From an uncultured Eubacteriales bacterium (GTDB taxonomy: Bacteria > Bacillota > Clostridia > Saccharofermentanales > UBA5734): a DNA stretch of 43,764 nt. The notes under the pieces were generated by a model, which was given only the letters and a program-made list of their open reading frames with translations, ran no database searches and was not told the origin of the DNA. The DNA is taken from the NCBI GenBank assembly GCA_903919045.1, contig CAIXGU010000254.1:1-43764 (forward strand), read 5' to 3'. Below are positions 93 through 19,788 of the stretch, in pieces (position 1 is the first letter of the stretch; each line of letters begins with the position of its first letter). The position numbers were made by a program, and so were the translations under genes.

Positions 93-170
93 GTGGCACC
101 TCGTCTCTCGCGCTGCGGCGACATCCATGTTCTCCCTGCTGCACGGTCCATTCCATCATCCGCATGGAAT

Positions 171-227
171 TCGCTTCGGTTCGCTTCGATAAGGGCGAAT
201 GGATCGGGGCTTCTGCTAGAATCGAAG
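171..227 (+). promoter_or_regulatory. Candidate extended -10 promoter and repeats upstream of the GH18 gene
   Basis: TGCTAGAAT at 214-222 is an extended -10 (TGn plus TAGAAT, five of six matches) with no good -35. It would start transcription near 229 and leave a leader of about 43 bases before the ATG at 272. Just upstream, TCGCTTCGGT and TCGCTTCGAT (171-190) form a direct repeat with one mismatch. CTTCGAT (184-190) and ATCGAAG (221-227) form a 7-base inverted repeat around the promoter core, which could be an operator. This is pattern matching only. Confidence 0.35.
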
Positions 228-271
228 ATGCCGGGATTTCACGAAGCTTCCTCTGGAAAGGCGGAGATATC

Positions 272-1288
272 ATGGTTTTCATGGGCTATTGCCTCGCTGA
301 GCATCTCCATGCGGTGAACGACAGGCAGGCGCATGGACTGACGCACCTGAACGTTGCGTTCGGCGTGGTCAGGAATGGCGCCGTCGACATCGAGGGCATC
401 CGCGCCTCCCGCGCGGAGTTGCCGAGGTTGCGAGCGGCTCATCCGGGTCTCCGGATCCTCCTGTCGATCGGGGGCGGCGACGAGAACCAGCGGCATCCCT
501 TCGGCGTCGCGACGCGGACGCAGGGCGACATCGACCGGCTGGCCGATTCGGCCATGGAGGCGGTCCGGGAATTCGGCTTCGACGGCATCGACTGCGATTG
601 GGAATACCCCTGTTCGAGCGGCGACCCCGCGGAACGGGGCCAGCATCTCGCGCTCATGCGGACGCTCCGGTCCCGCCTGGACGCTTCCGCCGCGAGACGG
701 GGGACGAAGGGCTGGCTGACCTACGCGGCGCCGTGCACGGAGGAATACATCCGGAACGTGGCCGTGCGGGAGCTGGCGCAGGTCGCCGACTACGTCAACC
801 TGATGGGCTACGATTTCCGATGGGCCGGCCCGCGCACGGGGCTGCACTGCAACACCTACAGCCCTTCGGACGACCCGGATCCGACCAGCATCGACTGGGC
901 CGTCGGGAAATTCATGGAAGCCGGGGTTCCGCCGGGCGGCATCGTCCTCGGGGCGGCCTTCTATTCGCATCGCTATGACGGCGTGCAAGGCGGCGGGAAC
1001 GGGTACGGGCAGCCGTATACGGGTGCGTATTCCTATGGACCCGGCTATGGGGAGATCAAGAACCGGTACGAGACGGACCCCCGCTTCACGCGGCACTGGC
1101 ATGAAGAGGCGAAGGAGCCCTGGTTGTTCGACGGAGAGAGCTTCCTCACGTACGACGACGCGGAAGCGATGGCCCACAAGGCCGAGCTGGCGAAGCGGAG
1201 GGGCCTGGCCGGCATGATGTACTGGGAACATGGGTGCGATCGGACCGGCACGCTCTTCGATGCGATCCACGACGCATTGAAGCGGTGA
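272..1288 (+). CDS. GH18 glycosidase (chitinase/endo-GlcNAcase-like), cytosolic
   Basis: The 338-residue protein is a single GH18 TIM barrel. The family hydrolyses beta-1,4 linkages between GlcNAc units (chitin, or the chitobiose core of N-glycans) by substrate-assisted catalysis. SIGGGD near residue 65 is the strand-3 motif. FDGIDCDWEYP gives the D-x-x-D-x-D-x-E signature, with D104, D107, D109 and the acid E111. LMGYDF is the later substrate-contact strand and MMYWEH the final strand. I chose the ATG at 272 because GGAAAGGCGGAG precedes it and the protein then starts with a barrel strand; the in-frame ATG at 164 adds 36 residues with no signal-peptide character. The enzyme is therefore probably intracellular and acts on imported oligosaccharides. 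It converges with the GH3 gene, leaving five bases between stop codons. Chitinase versus endo-beta-GlcNAcase is undecided. Confidence 0.9.
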   Translation: MVFMGYCLAEHLHAVNDRQAHGLTHLNVAFGVVRNGAVDIEGIRASRAELPRLRAAHPGLRILLSIGGGDENQRHPFGVATRTQGDIDRLADSAMEAVREFGFDGIDCDWEYPCSSGDPAERGQHLALMRTLRSRLDASAARRGTKGWLTYAAPCTEEYIRNVAVRELAQVADYVNLMGYDFRWAGPRTGLHCNTYSPSDDPDPTSIDWAVGKFMEAGVPPGGIVLGAAFYSHRYDGVQGGGNGYGQPYTGAYSYGPGYGEIKNRYETDPRFTRHWHEEAKEPWLFDGESFLTYDDAEAMAHKAELAKRRGLAGMMYWEHGCDRTGTLFDAIHDALKR

Positions 1289-1293
1289 GCCCT

Positions 1294-3387
1294 TCATCGC
1301 GGATCGGGATGTTCCGCTCCCAGAAGTGAATAGACGACGGCGGACGGCACGATGGAGCGATTCCCGGCGCCGTCGAACAGCCGCCTCGCATCGGAAGGGA
1401 TCGCGAACTCCACGGAGCACGACGCGCCCGGCTCGAGGAAGACCTTCTCCATGCCGACGAGGCGCTCGATCGGCTGGTCCGGTCCGGTGCCGGGCGTCCG
1501 CAGGTACAGCTGCAGCACGCGATGGGAGGCGACCGGACCCTCGTTCCGCACGGTCGCGCCCACGCGGTCCGTGCCGTCCTCCGCACGGGAGGTCCGCAGG
1601 CCGTCGTGCACGAACCGCGCATAGGAAAGGCCGGCACCGAAGCGGTACAGGGGCTCCTTCCTGAAGTAGCGGTAGGTCCGTCCTTCCATGGCGTAGTCCC
1701 GGAAGTCCGGAAGGTCCGCCGTCGAGCGGTAGAACGTGACGGGGAGGCAGCCGCAGGGGGAGAACTCGCCGAAGAGGACCTTGGCGACGGCGAGACCGCC
1801 CATCGCCCCGGGGTAGAAGGCCTGGAGGACGGCGCCGGTCGAAGGCCCTTCGCCGAAGGGGGAGAGCGCGCTTCCGGAGAGGAGGACGAGGGCGATGGGT
1901 TTTCCGGTCGACCGGATCGCGTCGAGGAGACGCGCCTGGACGTCGGGAAGCTCGACGCCGGGCTTGTCTCCGCTCGCGAACGAATTCCCGGCGTCGCCTT
2001 CCTCGCCCTCCAGCGTGGAGTCCAGCCCGAGGCAGAGCACGACGGCATCGCAGAGCGATGCGGTCTCCATGGCCTCGGCCAGGAGGTCGCCCTTCGCGCA
2101 CAGGGACTGGTTCGGATCCCGGAACGGATGGGATCCCTGCGCATAACGGACTTCCACGGTCGGAGGGACGATGGAGCGGATCCCCCGGAGAATGGTCCAG
2201 GGATCCGACGGCGTGCCGTGGTAATTGCCGAGCAGGGCGGTGAGGGAATCCGCATTCGGGCCGATGACGGCGATGCGGCGCATCCGCGCGGCATCGAGCG
2301 GCAGGAGGCCGTCGTTCTCGAGCAGCACGAGGGAGTGGAGCGCGGCTTTCAGGTTGAGCGCCCGATGCTCCGCGCAGTCGACCCGATCGTACGGGATCGA
2401 GGCGTAGGGATGGCCGTCGGACGCCTCCCCGAGGAGCCCGAGACGGAAGCGGGCGACCAGGAGGCGCTCGAGGCTCCGGTCGAGGTCCCGCTCCTCGGCG
2501 AGGCCTCCGCGGACCGCCGAGAGCAGATGCAGGTATGCGTTCCCGCAGTTCAGGTCGCAGCCGGCGCGGAGGGCGAGCGCCGCCGATTCCTCCATCGTCG
2601 CGGTGACGCCGTGGCCCTCGTGGAAATCGCGGATCGCCCAGCAGTCCGACGTCACGTGGCCGTCGAACCCCCAGCGCTCCCGCAGGAGCTTCGTGAGGAG
2701 GCGCGCGCTCCCGCAGGCCGGTTCGCCGTTCACCCGATTGTAGGCGCCCATGACCGCTTCCGCCCGGCCTTCGCGGACGAGGGCCTCGAAGGCGGGAAGA
2801 TAGGATTCGAAGAGGTCCTTGTCGGAGACCCGGGCGTCGAACGAATGCCGTTCCGCCTCCGGGCCGCTGTGCACCGCGAAATGCTTGGCGCAGGCGGCGG
2901 CCTTGAGGACCGCCGGGTCGTCTCCCTGCAGCCCCCGGACGAAGGCGACGCCGATGCGGGAGGTCAGGTACGGGTCCTCGCCGTAGGTCTCGTGGCCGCG
3001 CCCCCAGCGCGGGTCGCGGAACAGGTTGACGTTCGGCGCCCAGAAGGTGAGGCCCTTGTATTGGTCGCGGTCGCCGTGCCGGACCGCAGCGTGGTGCTTG
3101 GCGCGCGCCTCCGTCGCCACGGCGTCGGCGATCTCCCCGACGAGCGCGGGGTCGAAGGTCGCGGCGAGTGCGATGGCCTGCGGGAACACGGTCGCGACCC
3201 CGGCGCGCGCGACGCCGTGCAGCGCCTCGTTCCACCAGTTGTAGGCCGGAATCCCGAGCCGTTCGAGCGCGGCAGCGCCGTGGACCAGCTGGAGGACCTT
3301 CTCCTCGAGCTCCATTCCGGCGACGAGGTCGCGGGCCCGTTGCCGGTAGACCGCATCGAGGGCGGGGTCGATGGCTCCCGTCGGCAT
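1294..3387 (-). CDS. GH3 beta-glycosidase (beta-xylosidase/beta-glucosidase type)
   Basis: This 697-residue protein has the full GH3 layout: an N-terminal barrel (about 1-300), an alpha/beta sandwich (about 320-540) and a C-terminal fibronectin-III-like domain (about 590-670). YNWWNEALHGVARAG near residue 49 is typical of the xylosidase/glucosidase branch. The KHF motif at 168-170 and HVTSDCWAIRDF, with the likely nucleophile D248, are in place. The protein has no signal peptide, so it probably releases terminal beta-linked sugars from imported oligosaccharides in the cytosol. It is the last gene of the minus-strand operon, ten bases after the oxidoreductase stop, with a GAGGT site seven bases before the ATG. 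Whether it removes glucose, xylose or GlcNAc cannot be settled from sequence alone. Confidence 0.93.
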   Translation of the reverse strand: MPTGAIDPALDAVYRQRARDLVAGMELEEKVLQLVHGAAALERLGIPAYNWWNEALHGVARAGVATVFPQAIALAATFDPALVGEIADAVATEARAKHHAAVRHGDRDQYKGLTFWAPNVNLFRDPRWGRGHETYGEDPYLTSRIGVAFVRGLQGDDPAVLKAAACAKHFAVHSGPEAERHSFDARVSDKDLFESYLPAFEALVREGRAEAVMGAYNRVNGEPACGSARLLTKLLRERWGFDGHVTSDCWAIRDFHEGHGVTATMEESAALALRAGCDLNCGNAYLHLLSAVRGGLAEERDLDRSLERLLVARFRLGLLGEASDGHPYASIPYDRVDCAEHRALNLKAALHSLVLLENDGLLPLDAARMRRIAVIGPNADSLTALLGNYHGTPSDPWTILRGIRSIVPPTVEVRYAQGSHPFRDPNQSLCAKGDLLAEAMETASLCDAVVLCLGLDSTLEGEEGDAGNSFASGDKPGVELPDVQARLLDAIRSTGKPIALVLLSGSALSPFGEGPSTGAVLQAFYPGAMGGLAVAKVLFGEFSPCGCLPVTFYRSTADLPDFRDYAMEGRTYRYFRKEPLYRFGAGLSYARFVHDGLRTSRAEDGTDRVGATVRNEGPVASHRVLQLYLRTPGTGPDQPIERLVGMEKVFLEPGASCSVEFAIPSDARRLFDGAGNRSIVPSAVVYSLLGAEHPDPR

Positions 3388-3397: not shown

Positions 3398-4432
3398 TCA
3401 GCCGTAGTCGACGTCCACGGGCTCGCGGCGCGCCGCGGAGTCCATGATCGCGAGGATGGAAAGGCTGGTGTTCGCCGCGTCCTCGAGGGTCACGGGGAAG
3501 GGCCTCCCGTCGGCCATCCGGTCGATGAAGGTCCGGATGCTCTCGAACGCGAACCCTTTCGCTTCCCCGTAGATGCGATGCTTCACCAGCATGTCGGGCA
3601 CCTCGACGCCGGTGTCCGTGACCTTCTGCAGCAGGGTGTGGTGGCTGGCATCGATGGCGATCATGCCCTTCGTGCCGAGCAGGTTGCACTTGATGTCGTT
3701 GACGTTCGGATTGCCGTTCGGCGTGATCCAGCCGTTCTCCATCTGGGCGATGCCGCCGTTCCCGAATTCCAGCGTGCTCTGGTAGAGGTCGACCGTGTCG
3801 ACGCCCAGCGAACGGAGCAGGCCGGACCGGCTGACCGCGAAGACGCGCTTCACCTCGCTGCCGAAGAACCACCGCAGGGTATCGAGGCTGTGGCTTCCGA
3901 GGAACCAGAGGATCGAGGAGCGGGCGGCCCAGGAGAGCATGTCGGTGGCGACGGACCGGACGTCGTTGAGGCGGAAGTACGCGCTGACGAGGTCGCCCAG
4001 CTCGCCGCGCTCGAGGGATTGGTGGGCGACGTGGAAGGCGGGGCTCCAGCGGTTGTGGAGGTCGACCATGGCGCGCACGCCGTTGCGCTCCACGGCCTCG
4101 CGGATCCGGAACACATCCTCCCGCGTCGTCGCGAGCGGCTTCTCGATGATCATGCTCCGGCCGGCGTTCGCCGCATCGATCGCGATGTCGGCGTGGGCGA
4201 AGTCCGGCGTCACGATCGCGAGGACGTCGCAGCCGGAGTGCGCGAGCATCTCCCGGTGGTCCGTGTAGACGCCGGAGACGCCGAGCGTTCCGGCCAGCGC
4301 CGCCGCGCGCGCGGCATCGCGGTCGCAGACCGCGACGACCTCCGTGAGCGGGTGGTCCTGGTACAGCCGCCCGTGGTTCTCTCCCCACAGGCCGGCGCCG
4401 ACGATGGCGACCTTCATGCGGCTCGTGAGCAT
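3398..4432 (-). CDS. Gfo/Idh/MocA-family NAD(P)-dependent oxidoreductase
   Basis: The 344-residue protein begins with a Rossmann strand and dinucleotide loop, KVAIVGAGLWGENHGR. Next comes IVTPDFAH and the family's signature EKPLATT near residue 98, whose lysine is usually catalytic. The C-terminal half is the mixed alpha/beta substrate domain, with GSHSLDTLRWFFG containing the expected histidine and aspartate. Members oxidise or reduce sugars, inositols or sugar acids, and some act as NAD-dependent glycosidases. The start at 4432 has GGAAGGAGGAG four to five bases upstream; the internal ATG at 4417 (MKVAIV) has no such site. It lies between the GH20 and GH3 genes, so a role in processing a released sugar is likely, but the substrate is unknown. 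Confidence 0.9.
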   Translation of the reverse strand: MLTSRMKVAIVGAGLWGENHGRLYQDHPLTEVVAVCDRDAARAAALAGTLGVSGVYTDHREMLAHSGCDVLAIVTPDFAHADIAIDAANAGRSMIIEKPLATTREDVFRIREAVERNGVRAMVDLHNRWSPAFHVAHQSLERGELGDLVSAYFRLNDVRSVATDMLSWAARSSILWFLGSHSLDTLRWFFGSEVKRVFAVSRSGLLRSLGVDTVDLYQSTLEFGNGGIAQMENGWITPNGNPNVNDIKCNLLGTKGMIAIDASHHTLLQKVTDTGVEVPDMLVKHRIYGEAKGFAFESIRTFIDRMADGRPFPVTLEDAANTSLSILAIMDSAARREPVDVDYG

Positions 4433-6399: not shown

Positions 6400-7323
6400 T
6401 CAGCCCTTCTTCGACTCCGCCAGCGCGGCATAGTTCGGGTTGTCGTAGGGGAAATCGTCGTCGAGCGGATTCCCGTGCGGCGGCAGGATCGACCACGAAT
6501 TGTAGTGATGGACCGCATACCCGGCCTCCGGGACGCGCCATTCCGTCTCGACGATCCGCCGGAGCGCGTGGAGCTCCTCGCAGAGCCGGACGGTCCCGAT
6601 GTGGTCGAAGGTGATGTTGATCTCCTCGTAGATGCGTCCGGTCTCGAATGCCAGGGAGATCCGCCGGCCCAGGCGCTCCGCGAGCGCGAGCCCCGTCCTC
6701 GCGAATTCGACGGCGCCGCGCGCGGTGTCGCGATAGGACATGAAGAGGGTCGTGTCGGCGTGGCGGATGCAGAACTCCGTCAGGTCCATCGGACGTCCGT
6801 CGGCATCGGCGCACGGGTAGCGATCGAACCAGCAGGGGATGTCGAGCTCGAGCGCCGTCCCGGTGCGGTCGGCGACCTGGCGCGCACGGAGGAGGAACGA
6901 CCGGTACGCCGCGACGACGGTGGCGTTGTCGGTCTCCCACGCGGGGAGCTGATGCGGCTCGATGTCGAGATGCAGGCCGTAGAAGCGTTCCTCGGGGGCG
7001 GAGACGCGCTGGTGGTCCTCATAGAACGCGAAGAACCGCTCTCCCTCCTGCCGGCCCTCCGGCAGCACCCAGCGAGCGTCCGCGCCGATCAGGGCGACCC
7101 GCACGCCGGCCGCGCGGCAGGTCCGGACGAAGGTCCGGTACTCCTCGGCGCTCCTCTTCCCGGGCGCGTAGACCAGGTAGATCTCGTTGACGCCGTTCGG
7201 GACGAGGAAGCGCAGGACCTCTTCGGGCCAGCCGATCTCCTCCGCGCGCCAGACCCAGGTGCCGAAGGGGACTCTTCTTCCGACCCGGTTGAAATCGCAG
7301 GGTTCCGCGTGGTTCGTGGACAT
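6400..7323 (-). CDS. GH18-like TIM-barrel protein of unrecognised family (cytosolic paralogue)
   Basis: I do not recognise a named family for this 307-residue protein. It is clearly related to the lipoprotein encoded at 12501-13487. Shared blocks are GTWVW (21-25), NGVNEIYLVY (43-52), FYGLHLDIEP (114-123), MSYRDTA (195-201), FETG (226-229) and HHYNSW (272-277). FYGLHLDIEP resembles the GH18 catalytic strand F-D-G-I-D-L-D-x-E with the first aspartate replaced, keeping D120 and E122. MSYRD resembles the GH18 M-x-Y-D strand. I infer a GH18-like glycosidase fold; catalysis is untested. The ATG at 7323 is preferred because GGAAGGAG lies upstream; an ATG at 7341 has no ribosome site. It is the first gene of the operon with GH20, oxidoreductase and GH3, and has no signal peptide. 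Confidence 0.72.
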   Translation of the reverse strand: MSTNHAEPCDFNRVGRRVPFGTWVWRAEEIGWPEEVLRFLVPNGVNEIYLVYAPGKRSAEEYRTFVRTCRAAGVRVALIGADARWVLPEGRQEGERFFAFYEDHQRVSAPEERFYGLHLDIEPHQLPAWETDNATVVAAYRSFLLRARQVADRTGTALELDIPCWFDRYPCADADGRPMDLTEFCIRHADTTLFMSYRDTARGAVEFARTGLALAERLGRRISLAFETGRIYEEINITFDHIGTVRLCEELHALRRIVETEWRVPEAGYAVHHYNSWSILPPHGNPLDDDFPYDNPNYAALAESKKG

Positions 7324-7362
7324 GGCGGCCGCTCCTTCCATTCATCGGAGATCGATGGACCC

Positions 7363-7506: not shown

Positions 7507-9147
7507 ATGGTCCCGACGAAGTCGATCGCATGGATCCTCGCCGCCAGTCTGGTCCTCGCGCTCGCGGGCTGCGCGGAGTGCGCGCCGAGCGACGCGACGC
7601 CCGAACCCTCCGCGAACGGGAAATACCGCCCCGCGATCGAGCTGACGGTCCCCGGCCGGGTCCTCGTGCGCGACGCGGCAGGCTACGATGATTTCCGCAA
7701 TCCGTGGACCGAGGCCTACGAGGACGAGCTCGGAATCACGCTCGTGCCCAAGTGGACCGCCGCCGCCGCGGAGAACGTGACGCTGAGCGAGCAGCTGGCG
7801 GCGGGCGTCGTCCCGGACCTGATGCCGGGACTGGGCCGCGCCGAATTCGAGCTCGTGGTCCGGCTCGGGCTCGCGGCGGACATGGGGGACCTGGTCGACC
7901 GCTTCGCGAGTCCCCTCACGAAGGAGATCCTCCACAGCGACGGCGGCTATTCGATCCAGAGCTCCACGATCGACGGGAAGCTGTACGCGCTGCCCCACGT
8001 CTATGGGAATACGGACAACATCCCGATGATGTGGATCCGGACGGACTGGCTCCGGGAGCTCGGGCTCGAGGTCCCCAAGACGCAGGACGACCTCGAGGCC
8101 GTCCTCGAGGCCTTCGTGCGCAGGGACCCCGACGGGAACGGCGTCGAGGATACGTTCGGTCTCTGCAGCACCGGCAGCCTGTGGGAATTCGGAGCCGTCT
8201 TCAACATGTTCGGAGCCCAGCCGTTCTGGAGCTGGTACTATGACGGGTACCACCGGCTCCGCTACTCCACCGTCTCGTTCGTCCCCCAGATGAAGGAGGC
8301 GCTCGCCTACCTCCAGCGCCTCTATCGCGCCGGCCTGGTCTACCCCGAATTCGGCGTGCTTCCTGCGGACCGCTACTACCGGACCTTCGCCGATGGCAAG
8401 GCGGGCGTCGCGTTCGAATACAAGTACCTGCCGCTGCACATCCAGGAGGATGCCGCCGGAGGCCGCGTCACGGCCGAATGGAAGGCGTACCCCCTCCCGA
8501 CGGCGCTGCCCGGCGGACAGCCGGCGCGCCCGTTCTCCTACCATGGTCCGGCGGCCTACAATGTCGTCTCCTCGAAATGCAGGTACCCCGAGGCGGCGAT
8601 CCGGATGCTGGACCTGTACACCGAGAAGGTCCATTCGGACCGGAGCGACGACTCCTACGACCGGTTCGTGCAGACCCCCGGCGGCGTCTCCGTGGAGAGA
8701 TACGCCGTGTTCCGGATGTCCGTCGCGAACGACCTCTCCGAATTCGACGACATCGCGGCGGCGGTCGAAGCCGGGGACCCGGCCGGACTCACCCGCAGCG
8801 AAGCCGAGAAGTACCGCCTGTGCATCCAGTACGAGGAGGGCGACCTGACCCGGTGGGCGGATTACCAGTATTATGGTCCGGGAAACGCCACGGTGACGGT
8901 CATCCGCTACTACTCGACCGCGGTGACCCCGTTCTTCTCCGACTACTATGGGCCGGAGCCGCAATCGGCGGGCCTCTATTTCGGCCAGCTCAACAGCCGC
9001 TGGCTGGAGACCTGCACCCGGATCATCATGGGGGACGCGGACGTCGGCATCTACGACGACTTCGTCCGGGCCTTCTATTCGCTCGGCGGCCAGCAGGCCG
9101 AGGACGAGCTGAACGCCATGGTGGCGGCGGCGACGGTGACGCCGTGA
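7507..9147 (+). CDS. LplA-like ABC transporter substrate-binding lipoprotein
   Basis: The 546-residue protein opens with a lipoprotein signal peptide ending LALAGC, so C22 would be lipidated and the protein anchored outside the membrane. It has the large two-lobe layout of the LplA/YtcQ-type sugar-binding proteins. A calcium-loop-like segment DPDGNGVEDTFG near residue 212 is common in this group. The ATG at 7507 is preceded by GGGAGGGAAGG. It is the first gene of the plus-strand run and overlaps the sensor-kinase start by four bases. No permease gene is adjacent. It may therefore feed one of the permease pairs farther downstream, or present ligand to the kinase. The ligand is unknown. Confidence 0.9.
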   Translation: MVPTKSIAWILAASLVLALAGCAECAPSDATPEPSANGKYRPAIELTVPGRVLVRDAAGYDDFRNPWTEAYEDELGITLVPKWTAAAAENVTLSEQLAAGVVPDLMPGLGRAEFELVVRLGLAADMGDLVDRFASPLTKEILHSDGGYSIQSSTIDGKLYALPHVYGNTDNIPMMWIRTDWLRELGLEVPKTQDDLEAVLEAFVRRDPDGNGVEDTFGLCSTGSLWEFGAVFNMFGAQPFWSWYYDGYHRLRYSTVSFVPQMKEALAYLQRLYRAGLVYPEFGVLPADRYYRTFADGKAGVAFEYKYLPLHIQEDAAGGRVTAEWKAYPLPTALPGGQPARPFSYHGPAAYNVVSSKCRYPEAAIRMLDLYTEKVHSDRSDDSYDRFVQTPGGVSVERYAVFRMSVANDLSEFDDIAAAVEAGDPAGLTRSEAEKYRLCIQYEEGDLTRWADYQYYGPGNATVTVIRYYSTAVTPFFSDYYGPEPQSAGLYFGQLNSRWLETCTRIIMGDADVGIYDDFVRAFYSLGGQQAEDELNAMVAAATVTP

Positions 9148-10889
9148 AGCGCGTCTTCCACCCCTCCTCCCTCTTCATGAAGCTCACGGGCGTCTTCCTC
9201 GCCGTCGTGGCGATCCTGTGCGCCGTCTATCTGTATTCGTACGTCTCGAGCATGAATCTTCTGCAAAGCGAGAAGACGACGTCGCTGGCGAATGCGGGTC
9301 GCAGCCAGGTCCAGACGATCGACTGGCAGATCGCGAACGCGAAGCGCGCGATCTACAACCTCTATTCGCTGCAGGACTGGAATTCGCTCGCAATGGCGCA
9401 CGGCTACGTCCTCGACTACGACGTGCTGCAGCAGGTCAAGGCCGCCGAGGACCGGATCCGGCTGCTCGTCAACGACAGCGAGATCCCGAGCGAGGTCGTC
9501 GTCCATTTCCCTCGGTGGGGACGCAGCATCTCGGCGAACCTCGGGCTGGTCGACTACGACGCGGAGCGGTGGGAAGGCGTCTCCATGCCGCGGAACTCCG
9601 TCGGAGCCCAGATCGTGTACCGCGACGGGTCCGCCTATCTCACCACCCGCTACCAGACGGCCGGCCCGGCCCTGTACGGCGTCGACGCGGTGCTGTCCTT
9701 CGAGCGGAGCTACCAGGCGTTCGGGGATTACGCGATGATGGGGGTGCCGCTGAACAACTATCTGTACGACACGGCGAGCGGGAACCTCCTGTACCGGCAC
9801 GAGGAGTTCGGGGGCGAGGCCGATGCGTTCCTCGCGGACCGCCTGGAGGGACTGGACCTCGCGAGCGGGAACCCGGCGACGCTGCGCTTCGGCGGCGATC
9901 GCTACCTGGTGCTGTCGGCCTCCTCCTCCTACAGCCGGCTGCGGGTCGTGAACATCGTCCGCCCGTCCGACCTCATCGAGCCGTTCGCGCGGCAGACCCG
10001 GCTCGTCATCCTCTTCACCGCCCTCATGTCCCTCTCGCTCGTCCTGACCCTGGCGTACCTGAGGCACAGCATCGTCCGCCCGGTCGAACGGATGGTCCAG
10101 GCGTTCAAGCCGGTCGAGCAGGGGGACTTCTCGGTGAGCCTCGCCCCGACGTCGAACGACGAGTTCGCGACGCTGTACCGGTCCTTCAACCACATGGTGG
10201 AGAACCTGCATGTGCTGGTCAACGAGGTGTACCAGAAGGAGCTGCTGGTCCAGCGCGCTTCCCTGAAGCAGCTGCAGAGCCAGATCAGCCCGCATTTCCT
10301 GTACAACAGCCTCTATGCGCTCTCGGCCATGATCAAGATCGGGGACAACGAGAACGCCGAGCGCTTCTGCATGTACCTCTCGAACTATTTCCGGTACATC
10401 ACCCGGAGCGACGCGGACCTCGTGCCGCTGGCCGACGAATGGCGGCATGCCGAGAACTACCTGAACATCATGGCCATGCGCAGCGGCACGGTGCGGGTCG
10501 AATTCCAGGAGGAACTCCCTGCCGGCGTGCGAGACCTCCAGGTCCCGCGCCTGATCGTGCAGCCCATCGTCGAGAACGCCTTCGTCCATGGCGGCAAGAG
10601 CGTGAAGACGTTCCATCTGCGCGTCACCGCGGCCGCCGACGCCGACCGGGTCCTGATCCGCGTGGAGGACAACGGCACGGGCACGGACGACCGGCTCATC
10701 GAGGCGATGAACGACCGCCTGCAGGACCTTCTCGCGCACGAGGAGGTCACCGGCCTCATGAACATCCACCGCCGCCTCCGGATCGTGTTCGGCCCGGAGG
10801 CCGGTCTCTCCGCCAGCCGGAGCGAGCTCGGCGGCGTCTGCGTGACGGAGACGCTGGTCCGGAAGGGAGGCGACGAGGATGACCTATAG
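9144..10889 (+). CDS. YesM-like sensor histidine kinase
   Basis: The 581-residue kinase has TM1 at about 12-30, an extracellular sensing domain, TM2 at about 287-306, a HAMP linker, then a His_kinase (LytS/YesM-type) domain. QSQISPHFLYNSL holds the phospho-accepting H384. QPIVENAFVHGGKS is the N-box and VEDNGTG the G-box of the ATPase domain. The GTG start at 9144 overlaps the previous stop codon (GTGA), implying translational coupling; an internal ATG at 9177 has no ribosome site. The partner is the YesN-like regulator, whose gene overlaps the 3' end by 11 bases. Such pairs sense extracellular oligosaccharides or loaded binding proteins and switch on neighbouring uptake genes; the adjacent lipoprotein may be part of the signal. 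Confidence 0.93.
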   Translation: MKRVFHPSSLFMKLTGVFLAVVAILCAVYLYSYVSSMNLLQSEKTTSLANAGRSQVQTIDWQIANAKRAIYNLYSLQDWNSLAMAHGYVLDYDVLQQVKAAEDRIRLLVNDSEIPSEVVVHFPRWGRSISANLGLVDYDAERWEGVSMPRNSVGAQIVYRDGSAYLTTRYQTAGPALYGVDAVLSFERSYQAFGDYAMMGVPLNNYLYDTASGNLLYRHEEFGGEADAFLADRLEGLDLASGNPATLRFGGDRYLVLSASSSYSRLRVVNIVRPSDLIEPFARQTRLVILFTALMSLSLVLTLAYLRHSIVRPVERMVQAFKPVEQGDFSVSLAPTSNDEFATLYRSFNHMVENLHVLVNEVYQKELLVQRASLKQLQSQISPHFLYNSLYALSAMIKIGDNENAERFCMYLSNYFRYITRSDADLVPLADEWRHAENYLNIMAMRSGTVRVEFQEELPAGVRDLQVPRLIVQPIVENAFVHGGKSVKTFHLRVTAAADADRVLIRVEDNGTGTDDRLIEAMNDRLQDLLAHEEVTGLMNIHRRLRIVFGPEAGLSASRSELGGVCVTETLVRKGGDEDDL

Positions 10890-12504
10890 GATCATGGTCG
10901 TGGACGACGAGACCGTCATCACCGACTGGGTCGCCCATCTCCTCGCGACGCGCTTCGGACCTGCGGTCGAGGTCTATCGCCACAACGACGCGTCGGCCGC
11001 CCTCCGGCAGCTCCTGACGGGCCTCTTCGACATCGCGGTCCTCGATATCAGCATGCCGGGCATCTCCGGCATCGACATCCTCCAGGAACTCGAGGCCAAG
11101 CGGATCGGCACGCGGATCATCTTCCTCACGGCGTACGGGGAATTCGAATACGCGAAGCGGGCCATCACGCCGCAGGTCGCGGCCTACATCCTCAAGGGCG
11201 AGCCGGACGAGATGCTGGAGCAGGCGGTCCGCGACGCCATGAAGCGGATCGAGGAACAGGTCGAGACCGAGAATCTCGTCCGCATCGCGCGCCGGCGGAT
11301 CGAGGCGGCGCCGACCGGGATCCGCCGCGAATACCTGGTCCGGCTCCTCCAGGGGCAGGGCGCGCCGGGTCCGGACGGGCCGCAGGTCCCGATGCTGCTG
11401 TCGCCGGAGAAGGGGACGCGGATGCTGATCTGCGCCCTGAACGGACGGGACGAGGAACCGCCGGTCCCGGGGCTCCTCCTGGAGATGGGCGCGCACATCG
11501 AGGAGGCGCTGGGACGCTCCTACGTCTTCGAGGGCGTCATGATGCAGAACGACAGCCTCGTGTGGCTGCTGCAGCCCCGCAGGGAGGAGGACGCCGGACC
11601 GGAGCCCCTCCTGGCGGTGATCGAGGGAGCGCAGACGCTCTACAGCCGGCATACAGGACACGACCTGCTGTTCGTCCATTCGAGCGCGCCGTTCCCGTTC
11701 GCCGAGACGGGACGGGTCTACCAGCAGCTGCTGCCGCTGCTCGCGTTCGGCTACGGCAAGGGACACATCGTGCTGGCCGAGGAGGACCTCCCGGAAGCGG
11801 GAGCGGCGGCGACGCCCGGGGAGGAGCGTTCCGCACCGCCGCTGCGTCGCGCGCCCATGCTGCTTTCGCTGCTCGAGCGCGGCGAACGCAAGGAGAGCCT
11901 CGAGCTGCTGGACGAGATGCTGGCGCCGTTCGGGAAGCTCCGACCCGACGGCGACCCGGCGCTCCTCGAGACCTACAGCATCGTGAGCGGCGTCCTGCTG
12001 GCCGCCCTGAACCGGACGGGCGCCTACGCCGACATCAGCCGCAGGCATCCGCTCGTCTGGCTGGGAGACCCCCATGCGTTCTCTTCGGGAGAGAAGGCCG
12101 CGGAGGCGTTCCGACGACTGGCGGGGATGCTGCTCCTGCGGACCGAGCGGAAGAAGGACGGCCGTTCCCAGGCCTGCGTCGAGAAGGCGAAGGAATACAT
12201 CGCGGCGCATCTGGACCAGGACCTGTCCCTCATCCTCCTCGCCGAGCAGGTGTTCCTCAACCCGTCGTACCTCTCCATCCTCTTCAAGAACAAGGCCGGA
12301 TGCACCGTCTCCGACTACATCAAAGGGGAGCGGCTGAAGAAGGCGGAGCAGCTCCTCGCGGAGACGAGGATCAAGATCAACGAGATCGCGCGGAGCGTCG
12401 GCTACCCGAACGCGACGTACTTCGGACGCTTCTTCAAGCAGGAGACGGGGCTCACGCCGCTCGAGTACCGCGACCGGCATGCGGTCCGGGAGGACCGGGC
12501 ATGA
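10879..12504 (+). CDS. YesN-like response regulator with AraC-type DNA-binding domain
   Basis: The 541-residue protein has a receiver domain (about 1-120) with acidic pocket D9/D10, phospho-acceptor D56 in AVLDISMPG, the threonine in FLTAYGEF and K106 in YILKGEP. A middle segment of about 300 residues is of the type found in long YesN regulators. The C-terminal 100 residues are an AraC-type double helix-turn-helix, with VFLNPSYLSILFK and EIARSVGYPNATYFGRFFK. It should be phosphorylated by the kinase encoded just upstream and activate the sugar-uptake genes. Its stop overlaps the next ATG by four bases, so kinase, regulator and lipoprotein are translated as a set. Confidence 0.94.
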   Translation: MTYRIMVVDDETVITDWVAHLLATRFGPAVEVYRHNDASAALRQLLTGLFDIAVLDISMPGISGIDILQELEAKRIGTRIIFLTAYGEFEYAKRAITPQVAAYILKGEPDEMLEQAVRDAMKRIEEQVETENLVRIARRRIEAAPTGIRREYLVRLLQGQGAPGPDGPQVPMLLSPEKGTRMLICALNGRDEEPPVPGLLLEMGAHIEEALGRSYVFEGVMMQNDSLVWLLQPRREEDAGPEPLLAVIEGAQTLYSRHTGHDLLFVHSSAPFPFAETGRVYQQLLPLLAFGYGKGHIVLAEEDLPEAGAAATPGEERSAPPLRRAPMLLSLLERGERKESLELLDEMLAPFGKLRPDGDPALLETYSIVSGVLLAALNRTGAYADISRRHPLVWLGDPHAFSSGEKAAEAFRRLAGMLLLRTERKKDGRSQACVEKAKEYIAAHLDQDLSLILLAEQVFLNPSYLSILFKNKAGCTVSDYIKGERLKKAEQLLAETRIKINEIARSVGYPNATYFGRFFKQETGLTPLEYRDRHAVREDRA

Positions 12505-13549: not shown

Positions 13550-14905
13550 ATGAAACGTCTGACTGGTCTCGTCCTCATCCTCGTCCTCGTCTTCGCAGTG
13601 GCCGCCTGCGCCCCTGCGCCGACGCCGACATCCACGCCCGTGCCCACGGCGACGCTCACGCCCGAGCCGACCTATGATTACGGCGGCCTTACGGTCCGCC
13701 TGGCCTGGGGCTGGGGTCCGCGCTTCACGGAACCGGGCGAGGACAAGGACCGCTTCGATGCCCGCGTCAAGGAAGTCGAGGAGAAGCTCAACATCAAGTT
13801 CGAGTGGAAGCAGATCGACGCCGGCGAGTTCTGGGACAACATGGTCACGAACACCCTGGCCAACAAGAGCCCCGGAACCGTCAACTTCACCTTCCCGTGG
13901 GTCTTCCCCGACTGGATCAAGGCGGGTCTGCCCGCCGACGTCAAGACCATCGCTTCGCGCGTCGGGATCGACATGGGCTCGACGGCCTGGGATCCGCTGG
14001 CCCGCGTGGCGGGAACGTACGGCGACAAGCTGTACTGCTTCGACAAGTTCCCGCTCGAGGTCAACGGCGGCTTCATCTTCAACAAGCGCCTGCTGCAGGA
14101 AGCCGGACTCAAGAGCCCGTATGACCACGTCAAGGACGGCACCTGGAACTGGGATACCCTTCGCGCCTATTCGAAGCTGCTGACCAAGGTCGACGCGGAC
14201 GGCAAGACCACGCAGTACGGCCTCTCGTCGATGTATCCCCAGTCCCTCGCCGACCTGCTGGTCCTCAGCAACGGCGGCGACCTCGTCGACAGCTCGGGCG
14301 CCACGCCGGTCGTGACCGCCGATTCCGAGCCGGTCCTCGAGGCCCTCAGCATGTACCAGCAGCTGGTCGCGGTCGACAAGAGCGTCCGCATCGGCGACCC
14401 GAACGACTGGGAGAGCAACATCAAGGCCTTCGCCAGCGGCGAGGTGGCCATGATGCTGGCCGAGCAGTGGGTCGTCGACTACATCAACACCATGAAGCCG
14501 GAGGAGTTCGGCTTCGTGTACTTCCCCAAGGGGCCGAAGGGCACCGACTATGTCTCGACGGCCGGCTACTTCATGTTCTGGATTCCCGCGAATCTCGACG
14601 AGAAGACGCAGGACGCCACGCTGCTGGCCTACAGCATGATCTTCGACAACCTCTATCCCGAGATGACCCTGACGGACTACTACAAGCAGATGGCGGAGAA
14701 GTACGTCCACGATGAGGACGGCGCCGCGATCTACGCGGACATCCAGGCCAACCAGCGCTTCAAGATGATGGCGGGCGACCGCTACGGCGTCGACAGCTGG
14801 GCGCTGTACAACCTGCTCGCCACCCTGGACAACACCCCGCAGTCCGCCGTGGCCGCGCAGAAGCCGGTCATGGAGGCCAAGATCGCCGACTTCCTCGCGA
14901 AGTAG
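13550..14905 (+). CDS. ABC transporter sugar-binding lipoprotein
   Basis: The 451-residue protein has a signal peptide ending AVAAC (C20 lipidated) and a Pro/Thr linker, then a typical family-1 sugar-binding fold. LNIKFEWKQID opens the first lobe, and TQYGLSSMYPQSLAD and WESNIKAFASGEVAMMLAE are characteristic hinge and second-lobe segments. GGAGGA lies seven bases before the ATG. Codon choice looks even more restricted (AAG, CTC/CTG, ATC, GAC) than in neighbours, as in highly expressed genes. A perfect hairpin follows the stop and probably lets this gene be expressed above the downstream permeases, as is common for binding proteins. It is the best candidate to serve one of the two permease pairs downstream; the ligand is unknown. 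Confidence 0.93.
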   Translation: MKRLTGLVLILVLVFAVAACAPAPTPTSTPVPTATLTPEPTYDYGGLTVRLAWGWGPRFTEPGEDKDRFDARVKEVEEKLNIKFEWKQIDAGEFWDNMVTNTLANKSPGTVNFTFPWVFPDWIKAGLPADVKTIASRVGIDMGSTAWDPLARVAGTYGDKLYCFDKFPLEVNGGFIFNKRLLQEAGLKSPYDHVKDGTWNWDTLRAYSKLLTKVDADGKTTQYGLSSMYPQSLADLLVLSNGGDLVDSSGATPVVTADSEPVLEALSMYQQLVAVDKSVRIGDPNDWESNIKAFASGEVAMMLAEQWVVDYINTMKPEEFGFVYFPKGPKGTDYVSTAGYFMFWIPANLDEKTQDATLLAYSMIFDNLYPEMTLTDYYKQMAEKYVHDEDGAAIYADIQANQRFKMMAGDRYGVDSWALYNLLATLDNTPQSAVAAQKPVMEAKIADFLAK

Positions 14906-14927
14906 GCGGAGCAACGAATCGCCCGAA

Positions 14928-14953
14928 CCCGGCGGAGGGAGACCTCCGCCGGG
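14928..14953 (+). promoter_or_regulatory. Intercistronic stem-loop with GAGA tetraloop
   Basis: CCCGGCGGAGG-GAGA-CCTCCGCCGGG is an 11-base-pair perfect stem closed by a GNRA tetraloop. It lies 22 bases after the binding-protein stop and ends 17 bases before the next ATG. There is no U-tract, and the right arm abuts the purine-rich ribosome site of the next gene. It could protect the upstream mRNA, partly terminate, or reduce translation of the downstream gene. Confidence 0.65.
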
Positions 14954-14970
14954 GGAGGCCCGGGGGAGAG

Positions 14971-17859
14971 ATGGCAAGACGTCGTTCCGCAGCGCTGATC
15001 CTGGCCCTACTGGTCGCTTCGCTGCCGGTCCTCGCGGTCGGCGCGGATGCGGGGTACGTTCCCGGCACCGGCTCGTCCGATCCGGGCGGCGGCCTCCTCC
15101 TCTCGGCAGGAAGCGCGGACTCCCTCGTTTCCTATCGGGACTACCTCGATTTCCTCGCGGAGAACACGGCGATCCCTCCGGCCGAAGCCGACCTCCCGAT
15201 CCCGTTCGACCGGCTGGAGCAGGGCGGAGGCGTCTTCGAGACGCTTCCGGACGCCGTCCACATCGACGAGGACGGCTCGCTGACCGTCGAGGTGACCGCC
15301 CCGCGGACCGCCCTCTACGAGCTCCGGTTGACGTACATGCCCGAGCCCGGCCGGTCCGCGGCCTGCGAGCTGTCCGTCCTGGTCGGCGACGCCGTGCCCT
15401 ACCGCCAGGCGGCGACGATCCTCGCGGACCGCATCTGGAAGCCTCGGTCCGGCACGATCGAACAGGACAGCAACGGGAACGACATCCGGCCGACGGAGGT
15501 CGAGGACGCCCGCTACAGCACCCTCCGCGCCATGGACAGCACCGGCTACACGACCACGCCGCTGCTTTTCCGTCTCGAGGGAGGCGTGAACCGGATCACG
15601 ATCCACGACAACCGGGAGAGCATCCGGATCCGGGAGATCGCGCTCTGCGCCCCCGAGGCCCTCCCTTCCTACGAAGAATACATCGCGGAGCATGCGGACG
15701 CCTCCATGGCGTCCGAGAGCTGCGCTCGCATCCAGGCGGAGCATCCCGCCTGGACGAACGATCCGGTCCTCGTTCCGACCTCGGACCGGACCTCTCCTCT
15801 GACCGAGCCGTACAAGGGCTCGAAGATCAGCCTCAACACCATCGGCCAGGACGGGTGGAGCCTGACCGGGCAGACCATCGCCTGGAGCTTCGACGCCCCG
15901 CAGGACGGGCTGTACGAGATCCGCTTCAAGGCCAAGCAGAACTACACGAGGGGCACCTATTCCAGCCGCACCCTGCTGGTCGACGGCCGGATCCCCTTCG
16001 CGGAGGCCCAGTCCGTCCGGTTCACGTACAGCAGCCGCTGGCAGCGGGTCACGCTCGGGGACGGAACGGATCCGTACTTCGTCTACCTCGGCGCCGGCCG
16101 GCACGAGCTGGCCCTTCGGGTGACGCTGGGCGACCTGGGCGACGTGCTCGGCCGGGTCGATGCGTGCGCCGCGGAAGTCGGCTCGATCTACCGCAAGTTC
16201 CTGATGATCATGGGCGCGAATCCGGACACGATGCGCGACTACAAGCTCGACCGGCAGCTGCCGGACGTCTTCGTCGAGATGGCGGACCTCGCGGACCGCC
16301 TGGACGCGGTCGCCGCCGACATGGGCGCGATCACGGGCACACGGGGGACGGAGCTGCTCAGCCTCACGCGCATGGCGATGACCCTCCGCGACTTCGTGGA
16401 GAAGCCGTACGAGATCCCCGCGAAATTCGCGATCTTCACCGGCGACATGTCGTCCCTGAACGCCTGGAAGAACGACGCCGCCTATCGTCCGCTCGAGCTG
16501 GACTCCATCGACGTCGCGGCGCCGGACGCCCCGGAGGAGCGGGTGCGGCCGAGCATCTGGGAGACGATCGCCCATGGCGCGACGCTGTTCTTCTCTTCCT
16601 TCTTCGAGAACTACGACGACCTCGGCCGCACGTCGGACACCGCGAAGACGCTGACGGTCTGGTCGACGACCGGGCGGGACCAGGCGCAGGTGCTGAACCA
16701 GCTGGTCAAATCGGGCTTCCGTCCGGACCGCGACGTCAACGTGCAGATCCAGCTCGTGCGGATCGATGCGATCCTCCCGTCCACCGTCGCCGGCAACGGC
16801 CCGGATGTCATCCTGTACGCTCCCCAGCAGATGCCGGTCAATTTCGCCATCCGCGGAGCCGCCCTCGACCTGAGCCGCTTCCCCGGATTCGACGACGTCG
16901 CGGCCCAGTTCCGCGAGAGCGCCCTGACGCCGGCCCGGTTCAACGGAGGCGTCTACGGCCTTCCGGAGACCGAGACGTTCCCCATGCTCTTCTACCGCGC
17001 GGACATCCTCCGGGAGATCGGCGTCTCGGTCCCGCGGACCTGGCCGGAGGTGCTGCAGGCCATCCCCGACCTCCAGAAGAGCAACATGAGCCTGCTCCTC
17101 GAGACGGGCATCTCGAACACCGTCGACAACACCCTGGGGCTTTCCGCCTACGCGATGCTGCTCTACCAGAACGGCGGCCGGTTCTACGAAGGGGACGGGA
17201 TCCGGACGCTGCTCGACCAGGAGACCGCGATCGAGACCTTCCGGACCTGGTGCCGCCTGTACACGAACTACGGCCTGCCGACGACCTTCAATGCGGCCTA
17301 CCGGTTCCGGACGGGCGAGAGTCCTCTCGTCATCTCCGACATGAGCCTCTACAACACCCTGATGATCTCCGCTCCGGAGATCAAGGGCCTGTGGGGCATG
17401 ACCACCGTGCCCGGCACGCCGCGGAACGGGACCGTGGACCGGTCCGTCAAGACCGCGACCACCTACACGATGGCCACGAGGACCTGCGACGATCCGGACG
17501 ACGCCTGGACCTTCATCCGGTGGTGGCTGGGCGAGGACACCCAGCTCGCCTACGCCCGCGACCTGGAGAGCCTCATGGGGACGGCCGCCCGCTACATGAC
17601 CGCCAATGTCGATGCGTTCTCCCGCCTGCCCTGGGCGACGAAGGACCTCGACTCCATCCTGGAGCAGAGCCGCTGGACCGTCGGCGTCCCGGAGGTCGCG
17701 GGCGGGTACTTCCTGCCGCGCCACATCAACAACGCCTTCCGCAGCGTCGTGATCGACAAGGCCGACCCCCGGGAGGCCCTGATCTCGTATGCCAAGGTGA
17801 TCGACGAGGAGCTCCGCGAGAAGCGCCTCGAGTTCGGGCTGCCGGTCGACGGCGGCTGA
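14971..17859 (+). CDS. Large secreted ABC binding protein with two N-terminal beta-sandwich modules
   Basis: At 962 residues this is about twice the usual binding-protein length. A signal peptide covers about 1-25 without a lipobox cysteine. Two related modules follow, each starting with a similar helix (SYRDYLDFL at 54, SYEEYIAEH at 233). Each then has a beta-sandwich resembling carbohydrate-binding modules (for example LYELRLTYMPEPG and LYEIRFKAKQNYTRGTY). A helical stretch (about 415-555) connects to a sugar-binding-protein domain (about 558-950) starting TLTVWSTTGRDQAQVLNQLV. I infer that the modules hold polymer or oligomer at the cell surface while the last domain delivers it to the permeases encoded directly downstream. 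Without a lipid anchor it must be held by another protein, or its signal sequence stays uncleaved. Similar fused binding proteins occur in DUF5696 gene neighbourhoods of Paenibacillus-like bacteria. Confidence 0.85.
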   Translation: MARRRSAALILALLVASLPVLAVGADAGYVPGTGSSDPGGGLLLSAGSADSLVSYRDYLDFLAENTAIPPAEADLPIPFDRLEQGGGVFETLPDAVHIDEDGSLTVEVTAPRTALYELRLTYMPEPGRSAACELSVLVGDAVPYRQAATILADRIWKPRSGTIEQDSNGNDIRPTEVEDARYSTLRAMDSTGYTTTPLLFRLEGGVNRITIHDNRESIRIREIALCAPEALPSYEEYIAEHADASMASESCARIQAEHPAWTNDPVLVPTSDRTSPLTEPYKGSKISLNTIGQDGWSLTGQTIAWSFDAPQDGLYEIRFKAKQNYTRGTYSSRTLLVDGRIPFAEAQSVRFTYSSRWQRVTLGDGTDPYFVYLGAGRHELALRVTLGDLGDVLGRVDACAAEVGSIYRKFLMIMGANPDTMRDYKLDRQLPDVFVEMADLADRLDAVAADMGAITGTRGTELLSLTRMAMTLRDFVEKPYEIPAKFAIFTGDMSSLNAWKNDAAYRPLELDSIDVAAPDAPEERVRPSIWETIAHGATLFFSSFFENYDDLGRTSDTAKTLTVWSTTGRDQAQVLNQLVKSGFRPDRDVNVQIQLVRIDAILPSTVAGNGPDVILYAPQQMPVNFAIRGAALDLSRFPGFDDVAAQFRESALTPARFNGGVYGLPETETFPMLFYRADILREIGVSVPRTWPEVLQAIPDLQKSNMSLLLETGISNTVDNTLGLSAYAMLLYQNGGRFYEGDGIRTLLDQETAIETFRTWCRLYTNYGLPTTFNAAYRFRTGESPLVISDMSLYNTLMISAPEIKGLWGMTTVPGTPRNGTVDRSVKTATTYTMATRTCDDPDDAWTFIRWWLGEDTQLAYARDLESLMGTAARYMTANVDAFSRLPWATKDLDSILEQSRWTVGVPEVAGGYFLPRHINNAFRSVVIDKADPREALISYAKVIDEELREKRLEFGLPVDGG

Positions 17860-17877
17860 CGTCCGGGAGGAGCGCGC

Positions 17878-18834
17878 ATGGAATCGAGATCCCAGAGAAG
17901 CGCCCGGCGCCTGCTGGACTGGTCCCGGTCCCGGGACCCCTGGCTGCGCCTGCTGGCCCGGGTCTGGCGGTACCGGACGGCCTATCTCTTCCTCCTGCCG
18001 TTCGCCGTCGTCTTCCTCGTCTTCACGGTGGCGCCCGTCGTCATCTCCATGCTCTACGGCTTCACGTACAACAACCTCCTCGAGCCGGCCCGCTTCATCG
18101 GATTCGCGAACTACATCAAGCTCGCCACCCACGACGACGTCTTCCTCATCGCCCTGAAGAACACCATCGTCTTCGCCGTGCTCACGGGGCCCCTCGGCTA
18201 CGTCCTCAGCTTCATGGTCGCCTGGTTCATCAACGAGCTGCCGAAGCGCATCCGGCCGCTGTTCGTCCTGATCTTCTATTCGCCGTCGATCGCCGGATCG
18301 ATCTACATCATCTTCGGGATCCTCTTCAGCGGCGATTTCTACGGGTACGTGAACGCCACCCTGATGAACTGGGGATTCATCGATCAGCCGATCAACTGGC
18401 TCGCGGACCCGAAGTACATGGCCTTCGTCGTGGTCATCTGCGTGCTGTGGACGAGCATGGGCGCCGGGTTCCTGTCCTTCGTCGCCGGCCTGCGCAGCAT
18501 GGACAGGCAGTATTTCGAGGCCAGCGCCATCGACGGCGTCCGCAACCGCTGGCAGGAGCTCTGGTACGTCACGCTCCCCCTCATGAAGCCCCAGCTGATG
18601 TTCGGGGCCATCCTGAGCATCACGGCCGCCTTCTCCATCCACGAGGTCACGATCGCGCTCATGGGATTCCCCAGCACCGAATACGCGGCGCACACCGTCG
18701 TGAACCACCTATGGGACTACGGATACCTCCGCTTCGACATGGGCTACGCGTCGGCGATCGCCACGGTGCTGTTCCTGGTCATGATCGGGTGCAACAAGGC
18801 GATCAACGCCATGCTTCGAAAGGTGGGGAAGTAG
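17878..18834 (+). CDS. Sugar ABC transporter permease (MalF/LplB type), first pair
   Basis: This 318-residue membrane protein has six predicted helices, starting with YLFLLPFAVVFLVFTVAPVV. The cytoplasmic EAA loop, EASAIDGVRNRWQELW followed by LPLMKP, is where the ATPase docks. It is the first member of a MalF/MalG-type heterodimer that moves mono- or oligosaccharides inward. A GGGAGGAG site precedes the ATG, 18 bases after the large binding-protein gene. The partner gene starts immediately after its stop. No ATPase gene is in the window, so a shared MsmX-like ATPase elsewhere is inferred. Confidence 0.95.
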   Translation: MESRSQRSARRLLDWSRSRDPWLRLLARVWRYRTAYLFLLPFAVVFLVFTVAPVVISMLYGFTYNNLLEPARFIGFANYIKLATHDDVFLIALKNTIVFAVLTGPLGYVLSFMVAWFINELPKRIRPLFVLIFYSPSIAGSIYIIFGILFSGDFYGYVNATLMNWGFIDQPINWLADPKYMAFVVVICVLWTSMGAGFLSFVAGLRSMDRQYFEASAIDGVRNRWQELWYVTLPLMKPQLMFGAILSITAAFSIHEVTIALMGFPSTEYAAHTVVNHLWDYGYLRFDMGYASAIATVLFLVMIGCNKAINAMLRKVGK

Positions 18835-19788
18835 ATGGCCGCACGCAGGGCGAACGGCGGGGACCTGCTCCGCCTGGCCGGCCGGAGCGTCCGGACGCTC
18901 GGGGAAGGCTATGTCCGCACCCGGTCCGGAATCCGCCGCACGTTCCACGTCCGGGCGACGCGCAGCGCGAGCGGCAACCTCGCCAATCTCCTGATGCTCG
19001 CGATCTTCTCCGTCCTGATGCTCGTGCCCATGCTGTACGTCGTCAACAACGCCTTCAAGCCGGTGGACGAGCTGTTCATCTTCCCGCCGCGGATCTTCGT
19101 GCAGAACCCGACGCTCGACAATCTCCGCGACCTCGCCTCGATCCTGGGCAACTCCTGGGTGCCGGTGACCCGCTACCTCTTCAACACGGTGCTGATCACC
19201 TCGGCGGGAACCGCCCTGCACGTCCTCTTCGCGAGCATGGCGGCCTATGTCCTCGAGAAATATCCCTTCCCGGGATCGAAGGCGTTCTTCGCGCTCGTGA
19301 TCACGACCCTGATGTTCTCCGCGACCATCACCAGCATCCCCAATTTCATCATCCTGTCCCGCCTCGGGATGGTCAACACGCTCTGGTCGATCATCGTCCC
19401 CGCCATCGGCGCGCCGCTCGGCCTGTTCCTGATGAAGCAGTTCATGTCGACGGTGCCCGACAGCGTCATCGAGGCCGCGAAGATCGACGGCACGAGCGAG
19501 ATGCGCCTCTTCTTCCGCATCGTCATGCCCATGGTGAAGCCGGCCTGGCTCGCCCTGATCATCTTCTCGGCGCAGAACCTGTGGAACACGACCGGCGACA
19601 TCTACATCCGCAGCGAGTCGCTCAAGCCCCTTCCGTACGCCATGCAGCAGATCATGTCCGCGGGCGTGGCGCGCGCCGGGGCGGGCTCCGCCGTGGGGCT
19701 CCTCCTGATGGTCGTGCCGATCGCGGTCTTCATCGCCAGCCAGAGCAGCATCGTCGACACCATGGCGACCTCGGGGATCAAGGAATGA
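18835..19788 (+). CDS. Sugar ABC transporter permease (MalG type), first pair
   Basis: The 317-residue protein has an N-terminal cytoplasmic stretch of about 45 residues rich in arginine and then six membrane helices, beginning LANLLMLAIFSVLMLVPMLY. Its EAA loop is EAAKIDGTSEMRLFFRIVMP. The start codon directly abuts the stop of the partner permease, with AAAGGTGGGG as ribosome site. Its own stop overlaps the next ATG by four bases. It forms the membrane channel with the upstream permease and should accept sugar from the large binding protein. Confidence 0.95.
   Translation: MAARRANGGDLLRLAGRSVRTLGEGYVRTRSGIRRTFHVRATRSASGNLANLLMLAIFSVLMLVPMLYVVNNAFKPVDELFIFPPRIFVQNPTLDNLRDLASILGNSWVPVTRYLFNTVLITSAGTALHVLFASMAAYVLEKYPFPGSKAFFALVITTLMFSATITSIPNFIILSRLGMVNTLWSIIVPAIGAPLGLFLMKQFMSTVPDSVIEAAKIDGTSEMRLFFRIVMPMVKPAWLALIIFSAQNLWNTTGDIYIRSESLKPLPYAMQQIMSAGVARAGAGSAVGLLLMVVPIAVFIASQSSIVDTMATSGIKE

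Follow-up and report, generated by a model that had tools for sequence, protein, structure and literature searches.

The window analysed here (the whole stretch of 43,764 nucleotides, from an uncultured Eubacteriales bacterium) encodes two related proteins, one cytosolic (P0003, 6400–7323, minus strand) and the other a lipoprotein (P0002, 12501–13487, plus strand), and it raises the question of which family these proteins belong to, whether they cut glycans and, if so, by what chemistry and in which biological setting. A sequence-only reading had taken the two proteins as a GH18-like family of their own, and had considered a role in the breakdown of HexNAc oligosaccharides plausible. The question is not restricted to this locus, since hundreds of genomes contain the family, yet it is still without a Pfam or NCBIfam entry and its solved member is doubtfully labelled.

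Genomic setting of P0003 and P0002

The coordinates proposed for P0003 were found to be right, the coding strand being the minus strand. The Shine-Dalgarno sequence GGAAGGAG precedes the ATG at 7323 by 8 nt, and we therefore preferred this start over an alternative in-frame ATG at 7341, which would add six residues (giving 313 aa); the residue numbers used below refer to the 307-aa form. Neither a signal peptide nor a lipobox was seen in this protein. The gene also opens, as had been proposed, a GH20 operon on the minus strand, in which a co-directional gene for a GH20C-type beta-hexosaminidase begins 30 nt downstream (6369–4465; Pfam Glyco_H_20C_C, 8.5e-45) and is followed by genes for a Gfo/Idh/MocA oxidoreductase (3398–4432; Pfam, 1.1e-28) and a GH3 beta-glycosidase (1294–3387; Pfam, 6.1e-47). 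A gene for a canonical GH18 chitinase-like protein (164–1288, plus strand; Pfam, 9.3e-53) converges on this operon.

On the other side of P0003, a gene for a solute-binding lipoprotein diverges from it (7507–9147, plus strand; Pfam SBP_bac_8) and is followed on the same strand by a histidine kinase (9144–10889) and an AraC-type response regulator (10879–12504), both assigned by Pfam. The end of the regulator gene overlaps the start of P0002 (ATGA), a 328-aa lipoprotein with the lipobox LASC, downstream of which lie the genes for two solute-binding proteins and two ABC sugar permeases (13550–19788, plus strand; Pfam). From this gene content, the locus appears to have the anatomy of a system for oligosaccharide uptake and breakdown, with P0002 placed outside the cell and P0003 inside it. 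The window also encodes a 962-aa protein whose solute-binding domain comes after a long N-terminal part (14971–17859, with the ABC permeases following) and a DUF5696 protein (22002–24617).

The blocks said to be shared by the two proteins are collinear, with 33% identity over 263 residues (E 1e-40), and thus reflect homology and not chance. A homologue search of the window genome gave no clear third copy (third match E 0.013), and among 23 genomes of its taxonomic family only the window genome has a family gene. In a quick tree with long branches, P0003 and P0002 group together, yet with a suspect Methylocystis branch. We also counted 30 AP_endonuc_2-type barrels in the window genome, many for 2.6 Mb, which fits a sugar-degrading lifestyle.

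A large family without a name

The notion of a two-protein family had to be abandoned. When a genome collection was searched with one motif pattern, at least 593 stretches matched, and at least 395 related stretches were confirmed by tblastn, mostly from Bacillota (the best 80 all being from this phylum). Relatives are found in plasmid records of Bacillus, Priestia, Paenibacillus, Pontibacillus, Methylocystis and Devosia, and the family is present in 25 of the 121 genomes of one Bacillota order. No credible family was found for P0003 and P0002 in Pfam, NCBIfam or PHROGs, nor in Pfam for 36 aligned relatives, whose scattered weak matches disagree between members. A literature search with most subscription journals outside its scope returned neither a description of the family nor a described enzymatic activity of any member.

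One member has a solved structure, PDB 10yv (Cellulomonas fimi, 275 aa), which matches the family profile over nearly the whole chain (E 3.6e-26, and 4e-24 in a second search). This actinobacterial protein keeps the D-x-E-P motif, the beta-7 glutamate and the terminal tryptophan, and differs from P0003 in having F for Y197, I for R198 and Q for both H118 and H272. We do not follow its title ('Putative GH97 from Cellulomonas fimi'): it has no GH97 Pfam match (243 residues being visible in the alignment) and its chain is far too short. The same applies to the family as a whole, whose members have no GH97 Pfam match and, in single-domain form, 275–330 aa against roughly 600 aa or more in GH97.

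Two other assignments were also rejected. The name 'amidase', given in its record to a relative from Bacillus badius (L004:5893–6795), is unsupported by profile searches of that relative, and for a phage origin there is no phage homologue of the relative L040 and none of P0003 in viral contigs. Tandem two-domain members occur in Paenibacillaceae (L072, L075, L092, L062 and L109–L111).

Fold and conserved residues

Structure prediction, which had been suggested as a check, gave a TIM barrel for both proteins: AlphaFold models P0003 as a complete (beta/alpha)8 barrel (pLDDT 91, pTM 0.87), and P0002 likewise (pLDDT 87). In the P0003 model, the residues conserved in the family (counted over 119 sequences) cluster at the C-terminal strand ends of the barrel. 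They comprise W23/W25 on beta-1, Y49 on beta-2, W85 after beta-3, H118-x-D120-x-E122-P123 on beta-4, D161 and W165 on beta-5, M195-x-Y197-R198 on beta-6, E227 on beta-7, and H272 and W277 on beta-8. The beta-4 segment FYGLHLDIEP (6955–6984, minus strand, as are the following three) ends the strand with H118, D120 and E122, the aspartate being kept in 118 and the glutamate in 116 of the 119 sequences, while the beta-6 segment MSYRDTA (6721–6741) contributes M195 (114/119), Y197 (110/119) and R198 (114/119). A second conserved carboxylate, E227 at the end of beta-7 (6643–6645), is glutamate in 109 sequences, and H272 at the end of beta-8 (6508–6510) is histidine in 117. The counterparts in P0002 are D167/E169, M243-x-Y245-R246, E275 and H318. 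In the N-terminal copies of several of the tandem Paenibacillaceae proteins the beta-7 glutamate is replaced by asparagine and, in three of them, the beta-4 glutamate is replaced by lysine as well; the C-terminal copy is intact.

Relationship to GH18, GHL10 and other barrels

HMM–HMM comparisons (hhalign) used profiles that were derived from same-phylum genomes. Against GH18, the family reached a probability of 95% (E 3.8e-8, for one comparison), with an alignment that keeps register at beta-4 and beta-6 as well as at the C-terminus and is stable to gap settings. The match is unchanged when the window proteins are left out; with nothing but the window pair it drops to 71%. In this alignment, FYGLHLDIEP falls on the DxxDxDxE strand of GH18 and MSYRD on its MxYD strand, so that both placements made from the sequence are borne out. 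What does not hold is the detail, given that FYGLHLDIEP had been described as lacking only the first aspartate, but the second is also missing (the two positions being Y115 and H118), and MSYRDTA reads MxYR instead of MxYD.

The similarity to GH18 (PF00704, the family of chitinases and SleL) consists of a TIM barrel with D-x-E ending beta-4 and M-x-Y on beta-6. Where GH18 has a complete DxxDxDxE, P0003 has YxxHxDxE, in which the third aspartate and the glutamate are retained; throughout the family these two are kept, and the second aspartate position is almost always H, Q or N. Unlike GH18, the family has an additional conserved glutamate on beta-7 and a histidine on beta-8. PF00704 matched neither P0003 nor P0002 nor any of the 36 aligned members at any useful threshold, and this, together with the replacement of two of the three GH18 aspartates and the change from MxYD to MxYR, places the family outside GH18.

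Nor is GH18 uniquely the nearest kin, since GHL10 (PF02638), an uncharacterised glycosidase-like family, matches equally well (96%, E 3e-9, with GHL10 against GH18 giving 95.7%); the GHL10 Pfam model had no sequence-level match in any tested member. The control comparisons gave 6–10% for GH20, 1–44% for GH5 (depending on gap settings), 0.2% for AP_endonuc_2, 0.06% for reversed GH18 and less than 0.4% for GH25, the last being a weak negative because its profile was built from 5 sequences only. With HMM similarity weak or absent, the GH20, GH25, GH5 and AP-endonuclease barrels were rejected as nearest kin, and the GH20 Pfam profile matched neither P0003 nor P0002. The profile–profile comparison yielded no confident match to a non-glycosidase family.

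Foldseek agrees with this picture at the level of the superfamily. For the P0002 model the top two chains are those of a putative chitinase (4wiw), and about 19 of the top 50 matches belong to GH18 or GH20 (including SleL and dispersin B), while for P0003 a GH20C and several GH18 structures are listed among other barrels. With TM-scores of no more than about 0.5, rmsd values above 5 Å and non-glycosidase barrels mixed in, the matches back the superfamily and not membership. The GH18-like character claimed for the protein is accordingly retained in fold, register and structural neighbours, with GHL10 sharing it to the same degree. P0003 belongs to a large, unnamed family of glycosidase-like proteins and not to GH18, and P0003 and P0002 are probably the cytosolic and the lipid-anchored members of one TIM-barrel glycosidase family, distantly related to GH18.

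A c-di-GMP-I riboswitch upstream of many relatives

The translated leaders of many relatives resembled structured RNA, and for 10 of the 11 loci searched Rfam (RF01051 or RF03167, at the gathering score) gave a c-di-GMP-I riboswitch immediately before the family gene. An RNA model (R1) built from these ten loci gave 52 matches in 89 loci (1.12 Mb), 42 of them outside the training set; all 52 lie immediately upstream of the family gene and on its strand, and none was found anywhere else in the 89 loci. The same model detected five further c-di-GMP-I riboswitches in a phylum sample. In an order-level sample, 25 genomes had the family, and in 10 of them the riboswitch preceded a family gene. A hairpin after the aptamer usually covers the Shine-Dalgarno sequence, whose mean pairing is 0.80 (against 0.62 when the upstream part is shuffled) and exceeds 0.7 in 38 of 49 loci, suggesting that the riboswitch controls translation. 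In the window no c-di-GMP-I riboswitch was found, neither for P0003 nor for P0002.

This association gives the family a biological address, namely matrix or surface polysaccharide under c-di-GMP control in Gram-positive bacteria, a group in which few c-di-GMP outputs are known, and makes direct tests of the family's role possible. Enzymes able to cut biofilm polysaccharides have practical uses as well.

Exopolysaccharide genes next to relatives

In 18 of the 89 loci, the family gene is found with a GT2 synthase (also matching the Chitin_synth_2 model) and a HEAT-repeat protein, the hosts being Planococcus, Planomicrobium, Jeotgalibacillus, Clostridium and clostridial MAGs. Hpt-receiver-GGDEF regulators are also present in many of these loci, and in some there is a large protein which, by eye, resembles a clan GH-A glycosidase. 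Related arrangements were seen in Niallia (HEAT and regulator genes, with no GT2 in view), in Devosia (receivers, with a HEAT protein and GT2 nearby) and in Methylocystis, where TackOD1, GT2, a membrane-fusion-like protein, the family gene and TolC occur together. Such gene sets are typical of synthase-dependent exopolysaccharide systems, and the loci with GT2 and HEAT (and often GGDEF) genes resemble an exopolysaccharide operon.

Hydrolases associated with exopolysaccharides are known from c-di-GMP-controlled operons, in the form of BcsZ, the hydrolase domain of PelA, and PgaB. The loci described here share with those systems a GT2 synthase that has a gene for a secreted hydrolase-like protein next to it, as well as control by c-di-GMP, and differ from them in the HEAT-repeat partner of the synthase and in having the riboswitch on the hydrolase-like gene itself; moreover, the P0003 family has no Pfam match to the BcsZ, PelA or PgaB families. 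Passages of a 2013 survey (PMC3766115) count polysaccharide-degradation and unknown genes in the GEMM regulon, and the family is not named in them. The link of this family to c-di-GMP riboswitches and exopolysaccharide genes is likely, but not proven, to be new, most subscription journals having been outside the literature search.

Proposed mechanism and alternatives

The reading that we favour, with a probability of roughly 0.5, is that P0003 and P0002 are GH18-like retaining glycosidases for HexNAc-containing glycans, from a family linked to the matrix and controlled by c-di-GMP in many Bacillota, and that they serve oligosaccharide catabolism in the window organism. In this mechanism, the glycan would sit at the C-terminal face of the barrel, with E122 as the predicted catalytic acid, protonating the leaving glycosidic oxygen, and D120 in an orienting role, positioning (with Y197) the 2-acetamido group of a HexNAc residue. 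The acetamido group would attack C1 to form an oxazoline, which water would then open with retention, as in GH18 and GH20. This chemistry is favoured by the HMM register, by the conservation of D120, E122 and Y197 and by the GH20/GH18 gene context; against it stand the absence of the first two GH18 aspartates and of the MxYD aspartate, and the conserved E227, for which GH18 offers no counterpart and which resembles a clan GH-A nucleophile.

This last residue is at the centre of a different, somewhat doubtful proposal, in which the proteins would be clan GH-A-like (4/7) Koshland retaining glycosidases, having E122 as acid/base and E227 as nucleophile, with no acetamido participation and no need for a HexNAc substrate. 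Both glutamates are near-invariant and lie where beta-4 and beta-7 end on the C-terminal side, and the tandem Paenibacillaceae proteins have lost E227, and in three cases E122 too, from their N-terminal copies, as if both residues were catalytic. Nevertheless, the family lacks the asparagine that precedes the beta-4 glutamate in clan GH-A (the NEP motif) and instead has D-x-E-P, like GH18, the hhalign probability for GH5 varies with the settings and stays far from the value for GH18, and few clan GH-A structures are found among the top 50 Foldseek matches of P0003 and P0002.

An unlikely alternative is a non-catalytic barrel that binds or senses carbohydrates and regulates the matrix or sugar uptake without cutting, comparable to the GH18-like lectin narbonin. 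GH18-like barrels in which DxxDxDxE is incomplete are known to serve as lectins or inhibitors, and the first two of these aspartates are missing here; however, the third aspartate and the glutamate, those most needed in GH18, are among the best conserved residues of the family, and the glutamate is lost solely in accessory tandem copies. It is very improbable that the proteins are sugar-acting barrel enzymes other than hydrolases (epimerases, isomerases or lyases), as suggested by the D-tagatose 3-epimerase and F420-dependent barrels among the top Foldseek matches of P0003, considering the negligible hhalign similarity to AP_endonuc_2 barrels, a set of conserved residues in which epimerase-like metal ligands are not evident, and the first rank of chitinases for the P0002 model.

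Under the preferred GH18-like reading, P0002 would trim a HexNAc-containing glycan outside the cell, the ABC system would take up the resulting oligosaccharides, and P0003, together with the GH20, GH3 and oxidoreductase proteins, would finish them inside. HexNAc catabolism is plausible for the window on the basis of gene context, the HexNAc specificity being likewise deduced from the neighbouring genes. In many Bacillota, the secreted relative is preceded by a c-di-GMP-I riboswitch that apparently acts at the level of translation. Based on this riboswitch and on the frequent exopolysaccharide operon neighbours, the more widespread role of the family probably lies in cutting or remodelling matrix polysaccharide made by the cell itself, a role that may not apply in the window, whose copies have no riboswitch. 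A more far-reaching proposal, which we put forward tentatively, treats the relatives of P0003 as a new glycosidase family. Its core members would supply the dedicated hydrolase of a hitherto undescribed exopolysaccharide system under c-di-GMP control (GT2, HEAT and GGDEF regulator), common to Bacilli, Clostridia and some Alphaproteobacteria, and the window organism would have a catabolic version that eats the polymer.

Some further observations were made in the loci of relatives. A large protein of the exopolysaccharide cluster in L088 (985–3156) forms, with its relatives, a cluster (c7) without any Pfam or PDB sequence match, and shows the glycosidase-like motifs KGVN and AEFG. The same locus has a c-di-GMP-II riboswitch (8831–8913) about 60 nt upstream of a gene for a methyl-accepting chemotaxis protein; the c-di-GMP-I riboswitch that belongs to the family gene lies 3 kb away. 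In Anoxybacillus (L065, L068, L071, L078 and L089), where no riboswitch was detected, the family gene adjoins a NodB-type polysaccharide deacetylase gene on the opposite strand.
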